NCBI RefSeq assembly: GCF_025273675.1
Contig: NZ_CP045809.1
Span: forward strand, 1,674,001 to 1,738,000
DNA from: Gordonia pseudamarae
GTDB taxonomy: Bacteria > Actinomycetota > Actinomycetes > Mycobacteriales > Mycobacteriaceae
Reading direction: 5' to 3'
Length of the DNA: 64,000 nucleotides
Below the pieces are notes generated by a model. That model searched no databases. It was not told where the DNA came from and saw nothing but the letters and a program-made list of their open reading frames with translations. Shown here in pieces: positions 38,462 through 45,070 of this stretch. The position numbers and the translations under genes are program-made. Each line of letters begins with the position of its first letter. The stretch's first letter is position 1.

Positions 38462-40100
38462 CGTGTCGTTAACAAAGAATGGTGCCCTGACCTGGGATGA
38501 TTGAACTTGCGAAGGTTCCAAACAGACCAGATCGAGGAGCACCATTCAGGTGAGTAAGTCTACGTCGCCGTACCCGTCAGTGTCGGTAGATGGTTCAGGA
38601 ACCGGTGTCGTGTCGCATGCGGGGGCTGTGGTGTTGCTGCGTACGGCGCACAAAACTGGTCTGACCAGCGCACTGTCACAGGCATTGGCGCCGTGGCGTG
38701 CGCCGATGGCAACCCATGATCCGGGCAAGATCATCGCTGATCTGGCCGTGGCGGTCGCGATCGGTGGGGACTGCCTGGCCGACATCAACCAGGTCCGCAC
38801 CGATCCGGGTGTGTTCGGGCCGGTGGCCTCCGATCCGACGGTGTCACGGCTGGTCTCGACGTTGGCCGCCGATGCCACCACAGCTTTGGCGGCGATCAAC
38901 ACCGCACGCGCAGCCGCGCGTGCGACGGCGTGGTCCGCTGCCGGTGAGGGTGCCCCTGATCATGGCCGTGATGCCCGTGCACCGCTGATCATCGATCTCG
39001 ATGCCACGTTGGTGACCGCCCATTCGGAGAAGCAGCAGGCCACCGCGACGTGGAAGAAAGGATTCGGGTTCCACCCGTTGTGCGCGTTCGTCGACCACCA
39101 GGGCGAGGGTACCGGTGAACCCCTGGCAATCGAGCTACGCCCGGGCAACGCTGGTTCCAACACCGCCGCCGACCACATCACCGTCGTCGAACAAGCGTTG
39201 ACACAGATCCGGGGCACCGGCGGGTATCGGGTGGGTAAAAGCGTGTTGATCCGCACCGATTCCGCTGGTGGCACACACGATTTCCTGGACTACCTGACCC
39301 GTCGGCGCCTGTCCTATTCGGTCGGGTTCGGGCTGACCGAGACCATCGCCACCGTCATCGACCGCCTCCAACCTGCGGCGTGGACACCGGCCTATGACAG
39401 CGACGGCACCGAACGCGACGGGGCGTGGGTGGCTGAGCTGACCGGCGTGCTCGACCTGTCGGGTTGGCCCGACGGTATACGCGTGATCGTACGCAAAGAA
39501 CACCCGCATCCAGGGGCGCAACTGCGCTACACCGACTCCGACGGAATGCGGTTGACCGCTTTCGCCACGAACACCACCACAGGTCAGCTCGCCGCACTGG
39601 AACTGCGCCACCGTCGTCGTGCCCGCTGCGAGGACCGCATCCGCAACGCGAAAGACTGTGGCCTGACAAACCTTCCATTGCACGGCTTCGACCAGAACCG
39701 CATCTGGTGCGCCATAGTCATGCTCGCCTGCGAACTGATCGCCTGGACCCAACTCCTCGGATTCGACGGCACCACCGCACGCCGTTGGGAACCGAAAAAA
39801 CTACGACTGCACCTGTTCTCCATCGCCGCCAAGATCACCCGACACGCCCGACGCACCCGACTCAAACTCGCCACACACGCACCCGGCCGACACCTACTAC
39901 TGGCCGCACTCACCCGGCTGGACACCCTACCCAACCCCCGCTGACCACCCAACCAACCCGACCAACCAACACCGAAAGGACCACATTTCGGGGCCGTGAA
40001 CCCCAACGCCCACCGACGCCTCGGCACACTCCTCACGGCCTCGGCCCGAAGTCAGGTCCCCAGACCACCCAATCGGGCCATCGGCAACCGACCGCCACCC
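38462..40100 (+). mobile_element. IS1380-family insertion sequence (ends approximate)
   Basis: The transposase gene at 38550-39944 is bracketed by non-coding sequence that differs on the two sides from the neighbouring broken genes. I could not see convincing terminal inverted repeats or a target duplication, so the ends are given only to within some tens of bases. A palindromic CAAAATTTTG near 40104 may mark the right end. Confidence 0.6.
38550..39944 (+). CDS. IS1380-family transposase
   Basis: 464 residues from GTG 38550. Seen: an N-terminal region with DPGKIIADLAVAVAIGGDCL and DPTVSRLVSTLA, the catalytic Asp in LIIDLDATLVTAHSEKQQA, the second Asp in VLIRTDSAGGTHDFLDYL, and a late region with RRRARCEDRIRNAKDCGL carrying the likely catalytic Glu. 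Length and motif order match IS1380 transposases. The frame is intact. Confidence 0.93.
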   Translation: MSKSTSPYPSVSVDGSGTGVVSHAGAVVLLRTAHKTGLTSALSQALAPWRAPMATHDPGKIIADLAVAVAIGGDCLADINQVRTDPGVFGPVASDPTVSRLVSTLAADATTALAAINTARAAARATAWSAAGEGAPDHGRDARAPLIIDLDATLVTAHSEKQQATATWKKGFGFHPLCAFVDHQGEGTGEPLAIELRPGNAGSNTAADHITVVEQALTQIRGTGGYRVGKSVLIRTDSAGGTHDFLDYLTRRRLSYSVGFGLTETIATVIDRLQPAAWTPAYDSDGTERDGAWVAELTGVLDLSGWPDGIRVIVRKEHPHPGAQLRYTDSDGMRLTAFATNTTTGQLAALELRHRRRARCEDRIRNAKDCGLTNLPLHGFDQNRIWCAIVMLACELIAWTQLLGFDGTTARRWEPKKLRLHLFSIAAKITRHARRTRLKLATHAPGRHLLLAALTRLDTLPNPR

Positions 40101-40545: not shown

Positions 40546-40950
40546 TCAACCACTTCTCACGCGCTGGGATCGCATATCAGTTAGGTGCCTGGCTGCCGTA
40601 TCGAAGTCGCGGTCATCATGCAGCACGGTCAGGCCATGGTGGACAGAGGTTCCGCAGATCACCAGGTCGACGACACTGAACGCTCGCAACGCGCCGGCTC
40701 GAACCAGTGTGTGCTGGGCGGTGTCGATCCACCGCCACACGTTCTTGGGTACAGATGCATCGGGGTAGAAGAGCGTGAGATCGCGGCTCATCTGGTCGAA
40801 CTCGGTCGCATTGCGCGCTGATCGGAGAACTTCGACGCGTTGGGGTGCGCATGACCGTAATTCACCTGCTTCAATAGTAGCTCGCCAATGCTCCAAGACG
40901 GCGGGCTCGCGCTGCATCCGCCACAGAGCTGACAAGTCGAGGAGGTACAC
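40546..40950 (-). CDS. vapC: PIN-domain toxin of a VapBC pair
   Basis: Predicted Mg-dependent ribonuclease toxin, 134 residues from GTG 40950, which begins one base after the antitoxin stop. Seen: the first acidic residue in VYLLDLSALWRM, the middle region with EFDQMSRDLTLF, and the C-terminal catalytic set in FSVVDLVICGTSVHHGLTVL and DDRDFDTAA. Length and motif order are normal for VapC, and the frame is intact. Unlike the fragment at 17.2 kb it appears functional. Confidence 0.88.
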   Translation of the reverse strand: MYLLDLSALWRMQREPAVLEHWRATIEAGELRSCAPQRVEVLRSARNATEFDQMSRDLTLFYPDASVPKNVWRWIDTAQHTLVRAGALRAFSVVDLVICGTSVHHGLTVLHDDRDFDTAARHLTDMRSQRVRSG

Positions 40951-40951
40951 G

Positions 40952-41173
40952 TCAGTCGCGCTCCCCGCGATCTGCTGCGCGCTGCGCCTTCCATGCTTCG
41001 TAGTCCCACTCATGGGCACGACGAGCATAGTCATCGAACTCTGCTGCGCGACGTAGCTTTGCCGCGTAGTCGCGGAGAGCCTCGTTGACCGCATCCTTCT
41101 TGGTGCCGAGTCCGGACCTCTTCAGGACTTCGGCGAGGGCTTCATCATCAACGTCGATTTGGGTAATGGACAT
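40952..41173 (-). CDS. vapB: VapB antitoxin
   Basis: 73 residues from ATG 41173. The N-terminal ribbon-helix-helix DNA-binding part reads ITQIDVDDEALAEVLKRSGL then GTKKDAVNEALRDYA, the actinobacterial VapB pattern. The charged C-terminal part (FDDYARRAHEWDYEAWKAQR) should wrap the toxin. Spacing of one base to vapC implies coupled translation. An inverted repeat upstream is the likely autoregulatory operator. Confidence 0.9.
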   Translation of the reverse strand: MSITQIDVDDEALAEVLKRSGLGTKKDAVNEALRDYAAKLRRAAEFDDYARRAHEWDYEAWKAQRAADRGERD

Positions 41174-41305: not shown

Positions 41306-41632
41306 TCAGCTGCCGCGGTAGGTCGAGTACGCGAACGGGCTCAACAACAGCGGGACGTGGTAGTGGCGGGTGGGGTCATCGACCTCGAAGCAGATGTCGA
41401 CCTCGGGATAGAAGGCTTTGATGTCGTTGTCGGAGAACCAGTTTCCGGTGTCGAAGACGAGGTGGTAGATGCCGGCGAGGAGGGGGAAGTCGTTGATCGA
41501 GGTGATGCGGCCGTCGGCGTCGGTGGTGCCGGTGCTCAGTTCGGTGCCGGAGGCGTCCTGTAGGGACACCAGCACACCTGTCGCGGGTGCACCGGTTACG
41601 GCGTCGAGGACGTGGGTGGACAGTCCGGTCAT
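41306..41632 (-). CDS. uraH: 5-Hydroxyisourate hydrolase (transthyretin-related)
   Basis: Hydrolyses 5-hydroxyisourate to OHCU, the second step of urate breakdown. 108 residues, normal length. Seen: the N-terminal signature LSTHVLDAVTGAPATGV with the catalytic His, the central arginine-type strand ADGRITSI, HYHVPLLLSPFAYSTY, and the terminal YRGS that defines the family. Its start overlaps the uraD stop by one base (TGATG), so the two are cotranslated. Confidence 0.97.
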   Translation of the reverse strand: MTGLSTHVLDAVTGAPATGVLVSLQDASGTELSTGTTDADGRITSINDFPLLAGIYHLVFDTGNWFSDNDIKAFYPEVDICFEVDDPTRHYHVPLLLSPFAYSTYRGS

Positions 41633-42162
41633 CAGGCGGCTCCTTCGTCGTCGAAGCTCCCGGCGGGTGCGAGCATGCGGATCAGTCTGCTGCGGTTGAT
41701 CTTTGCCAGCTCCAGCCGCATCACCCGGCGTTCGGTGGCCGGGTCGTTGCGCATGCGCTCCTTGAGGATCGCGAGTAGTTCGGCTGCGGGCCTGCCGTTG
41801 GCGAAGACCAGATACACATGTCCGAAACGTTCGTCGTAGGCGGCGTTGAGCGCTTTGAGTTCGGCCAGCACCGCCGCGTCGGCTCCGGCGACCCCCGATT
41901 GCTCACGAGCCGACGACGGGTTGTCGGCACGGTCACCGATCCGGGGATGACCCGCCAGTGCCTCATCGAGGTCTTTCTCGCTCAACTCGGCCAGAATCAG
42001 GTCGGCGTATTCCAGCAACGCCTCATCGTCGGCGAACGGGCGTGCCGCAGCCACCCGAATCGCCCAGATCGTCGAGCTGCAGCACTCGTAGAGAGCGCTG
42101 ATCGCCTGACGCTCCGTGAGTTCGTTGAAGCTGGACAAACCTTGCCAATCAACCCTGCGCAC
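41632..42162 (-). CDS. uraD: OHCU decarboxylase
   Basis: Decarboxylates 2-oxo-4-hydroxy-4-carboxy-5-ureidoimidazoline to (S)-allantoin. 176 residues. Both catalytic elements are present: the His in AGHPRIGDRA and the Glu in SAREQSGVAG. LNAAYDERFGHVYLVFANG and the C-terminal MRLELAKINRSRLIRM helices complete the fold. Upstream of and coupled to uraH. It serves as an in-window control for the degenerate OHCU domain fused to the neighbouring permease. Confidence 0.95.
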   Translation of the reverse strand: MRRVDWQGLSSFNELTERQAISALYECCSSTIWAIRVAAARPFADDEALLEYADLILAELSEKDLDEALAGHPRIGDRADNPSSAREQSGVAGADAAVLAELKALNAAYDERFGHVYLVFANGRPAAELLAILKERMRNDPATERRVMRLELAKINRSRLIRMLAPAGSFDDEGAA

Positions 42163-42277: not shown

Positions 42278-44275
42278 CTAGAGTTCTGGTTGCCTGCTGA
42301 ACCGCGCCGACGTGATCGGGTTGGCGTCGGAGACGAGATCATCGAAGCGGTAATTGGCGATCTTCGCGATCTCGATCAGCGCGAACGATTTTTCGCTCGT
42401 CTCCGAGTTGTCCATGCGGGCCCAACCGTTGCGCAGCACCCGGTCGTAGCGTTCGGTTTCGCGGGCGCAGATCACCAGCGGGAAGCCGAAGTGCTCCCGA
42501 TAGGCGGCCGACAGGTTGACCACATTCTCGTGTTCGGTCTCCTCCAGCTGTGACAGACCCTTGTGGTCGACGGCCACCATTTCGCCGGTCTCCTCATCCT
42601 CGGCGCCGAGGTCGGGGAATGCCTGGATGAGCTGCATCTGTTCCTCGTCGCTGCCGGTGAGCATGGCCTCCTGGAAGGCGCTGCGCAGATCGTGCACATC
42701 GTCGAACGGCCGCTGATCGTAGGCGCGGTCGACGACCCAGTCGACGTTCTGCACGAGGTCACCGAATGTTTCGCGGAAACGTTCGGGAGTCATCGTGTTC
42801 ACCTCGTCGAGGGTGATCGAGCCGGCCCCGGCCACCGCCGGACCACGCGACCCGATGTGGAAGAACAGCAGATTCAGCAGGATCGCGGTGATGGCACCCA
42901 TCGTGATGCCCGTCGAGAACGGGATTTGCAAAATGATGTTCGGCATCGCCTCGTCCACGCCCGGGATGGCATTGATATCGACGATCTCGCCGTCCTTGTT
43001 GATCACCTGCGACGGCGGCGAGGACTGCGAATGCTCGACGTACAGAGCCACGGCCAGCGAGGTGGCGGCGATGATCAGGTTACGGTGATCGGTGAAATCG
43101 ACCTTGGTGAGGGTCTGGATGCCGACGATCGCGACCGTCGCGAACATGATGAGCGCCGCACCGCCCAGGACCGGGGCCGGAATGGACTCGACCACCTTGG
43201 CCATCTTCGGGAACAGGCCCAGCAGCATCATGATGACACCGGCGCAGGCCACCACCCAGCGACTCTTGACGCCGGTCATCCGGACCAGGCCCACGTTCTC
43301 GGAGAACGCCGTGTAGGGGAACGAGTTGAACGAGCCGCCGATCACGGTGGCCAGGCCGTCGGCACGGATCGCGGCGGCGACGTCGTCCTTCTTGATGCGT
43401 TTGCCGACGATCTCGCCGGTGGCGAAAATCGACCCGGTCGACTCGACGGCCACCACCAGCAGAACCACGATCATCGACACGATCGCCACGATGTCCCAGC
43501 GCGGTGCGCCGAAGGCGAATGGCGGGGTGAAACCGAGCCAGTCGGCGTCGCCGACACTGTCGAACGACGCGTCACCGAGAAGCCACGCGACGAAGGTCGC
43601 CACGATCAGCCCCAGCAGGATCGAGATGGTGGACATGAAACCCCGGAAGAAGCGCTGCATCAGCACGATCAGGACGATGGTGCCCAGCGCGTAGGCCACC
43701 CATCGCGCGTTGGCCGAATCGTGCATGTGCGTGGCCGGATCGCTTACGGCGTCGCCCGCGCCAACCGGGATCAGGCATACACCGATGATCGTGATGAGTG
43801 TTCCGGTGACCACCGGCGGGAGGTACTTGATCAGCTTGGCGAAGAACGGTGCGATCAGGAAAGTGAAGATACCGGCCGCGATCACCGCGCCGTACACCGT
43901 CTGCAGGCCGACACGCGCGGCGTGCTCGCCTTCGCCGGCGTGGTCGTTGGCGATCTTGATGACCGGTGCGAGGGTGGCGAAGGTGATGCCCTGCAGCAGC
44001 GGCAGTCGCACGCCGATTTTCCAGAAACCGACGGCCTGCAGCAACGAGGCGATGCCGCAGGTGAACAGGTCGGCGGTGATCAGCATCGTCAGCGCCGCGT
44101 CGTCGAGATTGATGGCGCGGGCGATGAGTAGCGGGACGAGCACGGCGCCGGCGTAGAACGCGACGACATGCTGCACGCCAAGGGCCACGAGTTTTCCTGA
44201 TGGGGGCACCTGGTCCACTTCGTGGACCCGTTTACGTTGTGGCGCTGCCTTACCGGCAGCGAAGTCAGTCGCCAT
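42278..44275 (-). CDS. NCS2 purine permease fused to a degenerate OHCU-decarboxylase domain
   Basis: 665 residues from ATG 44275 (GCGAAAGGTGCG ribosome site); the frame upstream of this ATG is not coding. Residues about 25-475 are a nucleobase:cation symporter-2 transporter with QHVVAFYAGAVLVPLL, LPLLQGITFATLAPV, and the signature region ESTGSIFATGEIVGK plus FNSFPYTAFSENVGLV, which fits xanthine or urate uptake. Residues about 486-665 match OHCU decarboxylases (NLSAAYREHFGFPLVICARE; ALIEIAKIANYRFDDLV). The catalytic His-Pro is Phe-Pro (FPDLG, about residue 553), and the Glu-Gln element is replaced near VAVDHKGL. The tail is therefore probably non-catalytic. Upstream of uraD-uraH on the same strand. 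Confidence 0.9.
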   Translation of the reverse strand: MATDFAAGKAAPQRKRVHEVDQVPPSGKLVALGVQHVVAFYAGAVLVPLLIARAINLDDAALTMLITADLFTCGIASLLQAVGFWKIGVRLPLLQGITFATLAPVIKIANDHAGEGEHAARVGLQTVYGAVIAAGIFTFLIAPFFAKLIKYLPPVVTGTLITIIGVCLIPVGAGDAVSDPATHMHDSANARWVAYALGTIVLIVLMQRFFRGFMSTISILLGLIVATFVAWLLGDASFDSVGDADWLGFTPPFAFGAPRWDIVAIVSMIVVLLVVAVESTGSIFATGEIVGKRIKKDDVAAAIRADGLATVIGGSFNSFPYTAFSENVGLVRMTGVKSRWVVACAGVIMMLLGLFPKMAKVVESIPAPVLGGAALIMFATVAIVGIQTLTKVDFTDHRNLIIAATSLAVALYVEHSQSSPPSQVINKDGEIVDINAIPGVDEAMPNIILQIPFSTGITMGAITAILLNLLFFHIGSRGPAVAGAGSITLDEVNTMTPERFRETFGDLVQNVDWVVDRAYDQRPFDDVHDLRSAFQEAMLTGSDEEQMQLIQAFPDLGAEDEETGEMVAVDHKGLSQLEETEHENVVNLSAAYREHFGFPLVICARETERYDRVLRNGWARMDNSETSEKSFALIEIAKIANYRFDDLVSDANPITSARFSRQPEL

Positions 44276-44512: not shown

Positions 44513-45070
44513 ATGGATCGGCCGATGGTGTTGGGAGCGGTACTGGCCGCCGGTGCCGGAAGGCGCTTCGGTAGCCCTAAAATACTTGCGCGCCAAGGTG
44601 AATGGCTGTCAATCGCGGTCGATGCCCTCGTCGGGGGAGGGTGCGACGAGGTGGTGGTGGCGATGGGTGCGGCGGTGGTGCCGTCCCCGCCGGGGGCGCG
44701 AAAACTCATTGTGGATGACTGGGCGTCGGGGCTGTCGGCGACGGTGCGAGCAGTGCTCGGTCACGCCCGGGCGACCCCCGGATGCGGCGGTGTTGTTTTA
44801 CATGTTGTTGACACACCCGATGTGGGCGGCGACGTGGTGCGGCGATTGCTCCTCGCCGGCGGCCGATCGTCGCCGGCACTCGCGCGGGTGGTGTATGACG
44901 GCAGACCAGGTCATCCGGTCTACCTTGGGCGTGCGCACTTCGACGGCGTGGCGGCCGTACTTCACGGCGACGCCGGTGCCGGCGCCTACCTGATGGCGCG
45001 CGCCGCAGAGGTGATCGCGGTCGAATGCGGCGACCTGGCGACCGGGCTGGACATCGATACCGAGCGCTGA
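44513..45070 (+). CDS. MocA-like molybdenum cofactor cytidylyltransferase
   Basis: Probably converts molybdopterin to its cytosine dinucleotide, the form needed by xanthine-dehydrogenase-type enzymes. 185 residues from ATG 44513 with a GAAGGGGAG site upstream. Seen: the nucleotidyltransferase loop VLAAGAGRRFGSPKIL, the DD-type region LIVDDWASGLSATVRAVL with the conserved Gly-Leu-Ser, the DTPDVG metal site, and GRPGHPVYLGRAHF. Divergent from the permease. Its presence near purine genes supports a link to the molybdenum hydroxylase at 17.6-20.5 kb. Confidence 0.86.
   Translation: MDRPMVLGAVLAAGAGRRFGSPKILARQGEWLSIAVDALVGGGCDEVVVAMGAAVVPSPPGARKLIVDDWASGLSATVRAVLGHARATPGCGGVVLHVVDTPDVGGDVVRRLLLAGGRSSPALARVVYDGRPGHPVYLGRAHFDGVAAVLHGDAGAGAYLMARAAEVIAVECGDLATGLDIDTER

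Follow-up and report, generated by a model that had tools for sequence, protein, structure and literature searches.

Why does a purine permease of Gordonia pseudamarae end in a domain related to OHCU decarboxylase (UraD), an enzyme of the urate pathway, and does this domain still act as an enzyme? The question is raised by a single frame in the stretch of 64,000 nucleotides analysed here (the window), which reads on the minus strand from an ATG at 44275 to a last codon at 42281, with its stop at 42278-42280 (Table 1). A preliminary description of this DNA had taken the tail for a catalytically dead UraD relative serving as a cytosolic sensor or docking domain. Here we examine its residues, distribution, ancestry and conservation, and weigh the roles that it may have.

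Architecture and neighbourhood of the fused gene

The proposal that a complete NCS2 transporter runs in frame into some 180 residues resembling OHCU decarboxylases is borne out by profile searches of both Pfam and NCBIfam. PF00860 matches residues 28-413 of the fused protein (E 1.5e-99), and the protein exceeds the NCBIfam cut-offs of the TIGR03173 xanthine permease model (464.7 bits; cut-off 414.15) and of TIGR00801 (353.1 bits; cut-off 291.8), which places its permease part, over the whole length, in the NCS2/SLC23 family. Like the xanthine-urate permeases of the PbuX type, it is thus a complete permease encoded beside urate genes; it differs from them in a C-terminal extra domain of about 180 residues, present in 16/16 genomic places where the permease is at least 58% identical. 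The tail itself lies above the curated cut-offs of both UraD models, PF09349 (OHCU_decarbox; residues 493-644, E 1.2e-34, 120.5 bits against 24) and TIGR03164 (99.3 bits against 96.25), and by profile belongs to the same family as the OHCU decarboxylases of zebrafish (2o70), Agrobacterium (2o8i) and Klebsiella (3o7h), the zebrafish enzyme being its best solved relative (E 5.3e-28). Between the last membrane helix and the tail lies a short linker, in which H473, G475, G478, A482 and G483 are invariant in an alignment of 39 fused proteins.

Table 1. Positions in the window of the fused gene, its parts and the adjoining urate-pathway genes
Feature	Position	Strand	Basis
Fused gene, NCS2/SLC23 permease with C-terminal UraD-like domain, 665 aa	42281..44275	-	Open frame, translation, Pfam and NCBIfam
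Permease part, residues 21-471	42863..44215	-	PF00860, TIGR03173
Short linker, last membrane helix to tail, about residues 473-485	42821..42859	-	Alignment
UraD-like tail, residues 486-665	42281..42820	-	
Phe553, at the place of zebrafish UraD His67	42617..42619	-	Alignments
Asp570-His571, at the place of Glu87-Gln88	42563..42568	-	Alignments
Arg643, conserved as in intact UraD	42347..42349	-	Alignments
Separate uraD, PRK13798-type, GHPRIG and SAREQ intact	41635..42162	-	219.9 bits, cut-off 124
uraH, hydroxyisourate hydrolase	41309..41632	-	TIGR02962, 125.4 bits, cut-off 87.45

Directly downstream of the fused gene lies the intact uraD, which does keep both catalytic motifs, as had been described, and then uraH. 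To judge by its neighbours, which are uraD and uraH and in relatives also uricase, the permease most likely takes up urate or xanthine. Uricase (PF01014) has no match in the whole genome of the window strain, and no uricase-like ORF after uraH is listed in the three Gordonia loci scanned; an HpxO-type urate hydroxylase is encoded elsewhere in the same genome (C1:3464433-3465578; 601.5 bits, cut-off 500). In 6 of 10 related loci scanned (L102, L108, L113, L117, L128, L160) there follows an ORF that looks like uricase by its motif, and the locus of Rhodococcus qingshengii is annotated as permease, uraD, uraH and pucL. In Mycobacterium smegmatis, according to passages of PMC4617892, the permease MSMEG_1293 and adjoining OHCU decarboxylase, transthyretin and uricase genes rise together under nitrogen limitation, and MSMEG_1293, 1295 and 1296 also appear in passages of PMC4222082; from gene order we infer that MSMEG_1293 is of the fused type. 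Other genes nearby in the window include a divergent gene for a MobA-like NTP transferase (44513-45070, plus strand; PF12804, with a weak PucB match), perhaps with a role in xanthine dehydrogenase cofactor maturation, and, beyond uraH, a DDE transposase gene (38550-39944; PF13701) and a weakly VapC/PIN-like ORF (40549-41094).

Catalytic residues of the tail across its homologs

Catalysis by UraD depends on two essential residues, His67 and Glu87 in the zebrafish numbering, and both places are invariant in 25/25 intact enzymes of the lineage to which the tail belongs. The catalytic histidine is replaced by Phe553 in the tail, as the preliminary description had it, and Asp570-His571 appears to stand where the enzyme has Glu87-Gln88. 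The further claim that the Glu-Gln segment had been replaced holds in part: the pair is not simply absent, and nearly all homologous tails retain an acidic residue where Glu stood (Asp in 109 and Glu in 5 of 115), the remaining one, L058, having Leu there in the alignment used and Asp two columns on. Loss of the histidine is general. Across 115 distinct tails, 57 of them from named loci, the position holds Phe in 78, Tyr in 37 and His in none. The same position is His in 142 of 143 further distinct UraD domains, two of which are the third domains of triple fusions; the sole exception (L062) is a fragment of a tail copy with a frameshift in genome G222, and its partial frame was set aside from the count of 115.

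The tails do not share one motif. In family f60, L072 has YPDL with S-A-A-E-Q, and the Rubrobacter tails L204 and L244 have YPDL with S-R-R-E-Q; some f70 tails (L179, L181, L182) combine Tyr with E-R, while L050-L057, L070 and L071 combine Tyr with D-Q or D-R, and the family of the window has Phe or Tyr with D-H in a shortened loop. Since intermediates thus run from S-x-x-E-Q through S-x-x-D-Q and S-x-x-D-R to the shortened-loop D-H, the alignment suggests that Asp570-His571 stands at the former Glu-Gln site. Residue counts at the invariant positions, made on 113 of the 115 tails (L035 and L058 set aside), gave Asp570, His571 and Arg643 each in 93/93 tails of the family of the window, and Tyr at the His place in all 20 tails of other families, with Gln (12) or Arg (8) at the Gln place. 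The Arg643 place is Arg in 25/25 intact enzymes and in 113/113 tails.

Comparison over the wider set of enzyme-invariant positions indicates how far the tails have departed from the enzymes. In all 25 intact enzymes of the tail's lineage, 23 positions are invariant; the most frequent residue differs from that of the enzymes at 11 of these in the family of the window (509, 511, 553, 564, 566, 567, 570, 571, 589, 604 and 613 in its numbering) and at 5 in the tails of other families; the changed residues Asp570, His571, Gly564 and Ala604 are each found in 93/93 tails of the family of the window. Of the two checks suggested earlier, the alignment with UraD shows the loss of the histidine, and the structure model predicts a UraD fold, alike over almost the whole chain; a retained pocket is not plainly seen, with 11 of the 23 positions differing and the arginine kept. 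The full-length model is poor (mean pLDDT 68.4, pTM 0.58) and does not allow the tail to be positioned against the membrane part.

Distribution, ancestry and conservation of the fusion

Permease and tail share one frame in 80/80 named loci, which rules out chance or a frame artefact. These loci are the best 80 of 209 and all close relatives (in L097 and L098 the in-frame permease match is incomplete at the N-terminal end, and a contig end truncates L139); none has His in the tail. An intact uraD lies just downstream in 79 of these 80; in the exception, L127 (Mycobacterium sp. 852013-50091), no recognisable intact uraD follows the fusion, and the frame past the tail looks broken. The closest named relatives over the tail, among the matches listed, are a Gordonia sp. 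MAG (93%) and G. amarae (92%), and the fusion occurs in 32/151 genomes of the family. The order, class and family searches were queried with tails without the histidine and so favoured finding more of them, for which a phylum search with TIGR03164 and a permease-only search served as counterweights. The TIGR03164 search of 396 phylum genomes, in which the intact-enzyme model biases the result towards His-bearing domains, gave permease-fusion rows in 12 genomes, and the tail is without His in 11/11 of those examined (G924 left out). A permease with a directly attached His-bearing UraD domain was not found among the rows of that search with a frame of at least 600 aa (again leaving out G924), its long frames with His not being fused to a permease. 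In 249 genomes of the order, searched with the permease only, all 16 places with at least 58% identity carried tail sequence, with a frameshift inside the tail in one case; of the 5 places at 47-49% identity, none did. As far as sampled, the tail is by these comparisons a fixed part of a permease subfamily. The sole search beyond Actinomycetota was of a plasmid collection, where 159 records matched; the three examined among the 30 listed were two actinobacterial permease fusions and one Deinococcus UraD-uricase fusion.

Another OHCU domain is present in 58/59 genomes with the fusion, counted by presence of the domain irrespective of its catalytic residues, and in G210 lying in the same polypeptide; none was found in G149, an assembly of 1240 contigs. 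The most divergent fusion (L221 / L035, G149:C681) belongs to that genome. Several irregular arrangements were also seen: one-frame triple fusions of permease, tail without His and intact UraD (L053 in G222 and L054 in G210; KHPRIG/RHPRIG, SQREQ), a second copy of the fusion whose tail is frameshifted (L062 / L258, G222:C1:1532863-1534714), and a C-terminal tail remnant alone, with a stop, near an intact uraD (L036, G046:C14:225793-226017).

In a quick tree of 87 thinned domain rows, the fused tails form one clade (SH-aLRT 99), which spans several families; unfused HPDL-type UraDs of family f70 lie close to it, and the HPRIG-type uraD adjoining the fusion in the window is distant (branch 2.17). 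This difference of clade rules out that the tail was copied from the uraD beside it. A more careful tree, of 83 rows with catalytic columns removed and four long-branch rows omitted, kept the fused clade (98/80), its bootstrap being unsettled, and the permease parts of the fusions likewise form one clade (99; 44 fused and 10 unfused rows). Because the G863 tail (L204) and a Rubrobacter radiotolerans plasmid fusion (L244) do not differ in the last 200 residues, f70 is probably Rubrobacteraceae. One fusion and one loss of the histidine suffice to explain these data, which looks like one ancient fusion.

Conservation of the tail matches that of its partner. Median dN/dS (Nei-Gojobori) among 16 Gordonia sequences (L097, L098 and L110 not among them) was 0.132 for the tail, 0.164 for the permease and 0.146 for uraD, over 120 non-independent pairs (118 for uraD) with synonymous saturation handled by Jukes-Cantor only. 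Mean identities in the same sequences were 0.863, 0.855 and 0.808, respectively; in a wider set of 78 of 81 sequences (the 80 best loci and the window, with L097, L098 and L139 out) they were 0.708 for the tail, 0.751 for the permease and 0.668 for uraD (77 sequences). On this evidence the tail is under strong selection as part of the permease subfamily, and purifying selection, with the dN/dS given for Gordonia, together with loss of the histidine in 115/115 tails is the pattern of a conserved pseudoenzyme.

Candidate roles of the tail

With the histidine lost in all fused homologs examined and the domain kept by selection, the tail is best read as having a non-catalytic role, and we consider it very probable that it is not an OHCU decarboxylase and is functionally maintained. 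To this extent the role first proposed is upheld; its two forms, sensor and docking domain, are not separable by sequence. The relic reading, that the tail is decaying and without function, is rejected on dN/dS: its dN/dS and identity are like those of the permease, its sequence is present in every permease place at 58% identity or more, and the tails form one clade across several families. Decay does occur at times, as the frameshifted second copy in G222 and the remnant in G046 illustrate, but as a general account it is extremely improbable. Slightly more credit, though still little, is due to an enzyme with changed chemistry, for instance via the new Asp-His pair. Both residues are invariant in the family of the window; the 20 tails of other families have His at neither place, which would confine a His-based chemistry to one branch, and in the branch of the window the catalytic loop is shortened.

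What then might a non-catalytic tail do? As a whole, the best explanation, to which we give even chances, is a purine permease with an attached pseudo-UraD domain that senses a pathway compound and alters uptake. The C-terminus of NCS2 proteins is cytosolic, and the domain, presumably cytosolic too, would be permanently attached to the permease, held under the transporter dimer by the short conserved linker. Its altered pocket, with an aromatic residue for His, Asp for Glu and the conserved Arg, would bind a planar compound of the urate pathway such as OHCU or allantoin, the Tyr or Phe allowing it to bind without consuming its ligand, and uptake would change with the ligand. The step of ligand sensing, taken alone, is somewhat less likely than not. 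That the histidine was replaced by aromatic residues only, with acid and Arg kept, suggests a ligand site over random decay, and the apparent fixation of new residues at the changed positions in the family of the window would also speak for sensing. Against it, OHCU binding may have been lost altogether, given that 11 of the 23 enzyme-invariant positions differ, and shared descent from a single event, not function, may explain the conserved aromatic residue.

The tail might instead form a pair with the tail of the other subunit beneath the permease dimer and stabilise that dimer with no ligand involved, a structural role that we regard as rather unlikely. It would accord with the short, conserved linker and with the retention of 12 of the 23 enzyme-invariant positions while catalytic ones change; SLC23 proteins are dimeric, and their dimerisation bears on transport, according to passages of PMC11362169, and the related Arabidopsis domain dimerises in the crystal (passages of PMC2834698). 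The four changed residues present in 93/93 tails are, however, not obviously needed for a purely structural role. Docking, in which the tail would bring active UraD (or UraH) to the inner opening of the permease, is a little less likely again, despite the intact uraD found downstream in nearly all named loci. Mixed pairing is easily imagined where, as in four of the f70 regions examined (L203, L205, L206, L208), the neighbour is an intact UraD of the tail's own HPDL lineage, and in two genomes of one genus in family f4 (L053, L054) permease, tail without His and intact UraD are one polypeptide. Docking on UraD is weakened in the window, in whose family the adjacent UraD comes from a distant clade; the intact gene is not always adjacent, lying kilobases off or elsewhere in several genomes (e.g. 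G335, G028, G786), and G149 yielded no second OHCU domain. Moreover, the UraD step comes two steps after urate oxidation begins.

For the pseudo-UraD ligand sensor, a parallel is offered by the SLC26/SulP transporters, which have a related membrane fold and a C-terminal cytosolic STAS domain; the mode of action would be like that of STAS in these relatives of the transporter fold. Only the arrangement is alike, however: the domain added here is a former metabolic enzyme, and Pfam gives OHCU_decarbox and no STAS. By this analogy we tentatively propose that a single fusion, early in Actinomycetota, joined an enzyme of the urate pathway to a purine permease, and that this enzyme became a metabolite sensor acting as a feedback gauge for the transporter. 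Compared with OHCU decarboxylases, the tail has His67 changed to Phe or Tyr, Glu87 to Asp and Gln88 to His, a shortened catalytic loop and an attached permease. UraD domains are also joined to other urate-pathway proteins, in Deinococcus UraD-uricase and in plant TTL; the one Deinococcus fusion examined keeps HPDLAG and SEQ, a catalytic motif that the permease-attached tails do not keep. Arabidopsis TTL shows both activities (passages of PMC2834698).

Among the matches listed in a literature search we found no description of a permease-UraD fusion or of a general loss of its histidine. The combination of permease and OHCU_decarbox is presumably visible in domain databases. It offers a natural test of a metabolic enzyme turning into a transporter part, with apparently one origin, with living relatives whose motifs form a series (His gone but Glu-Gln present, then Asp-Gln or Asp-Arg, then Asp-His) and with another UraD-type domain still in 58 of the 59 fusion genomes. 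It also points to purine uptake and urate breakdown being directly connected in Gordonia, Rhodococcus, Williamsia, mycobacteria and Rubrobacter. Annotation is affected as well: RefSeq labels the R. radiotolerans plasmid fusion without His (L244:3612-5609) simply as uraD decarboxylase, and that of R. qingshengii simply as solute carrier family 23. A second purine permease of the window genome, 49% identical (G000:C1:3742803-3744107; L263), has a C-terminal LRV_2 domain in Pfam (52.8 bits), and L266 likewise has an LRV_2 add-on at its C-terminus (56 bits).
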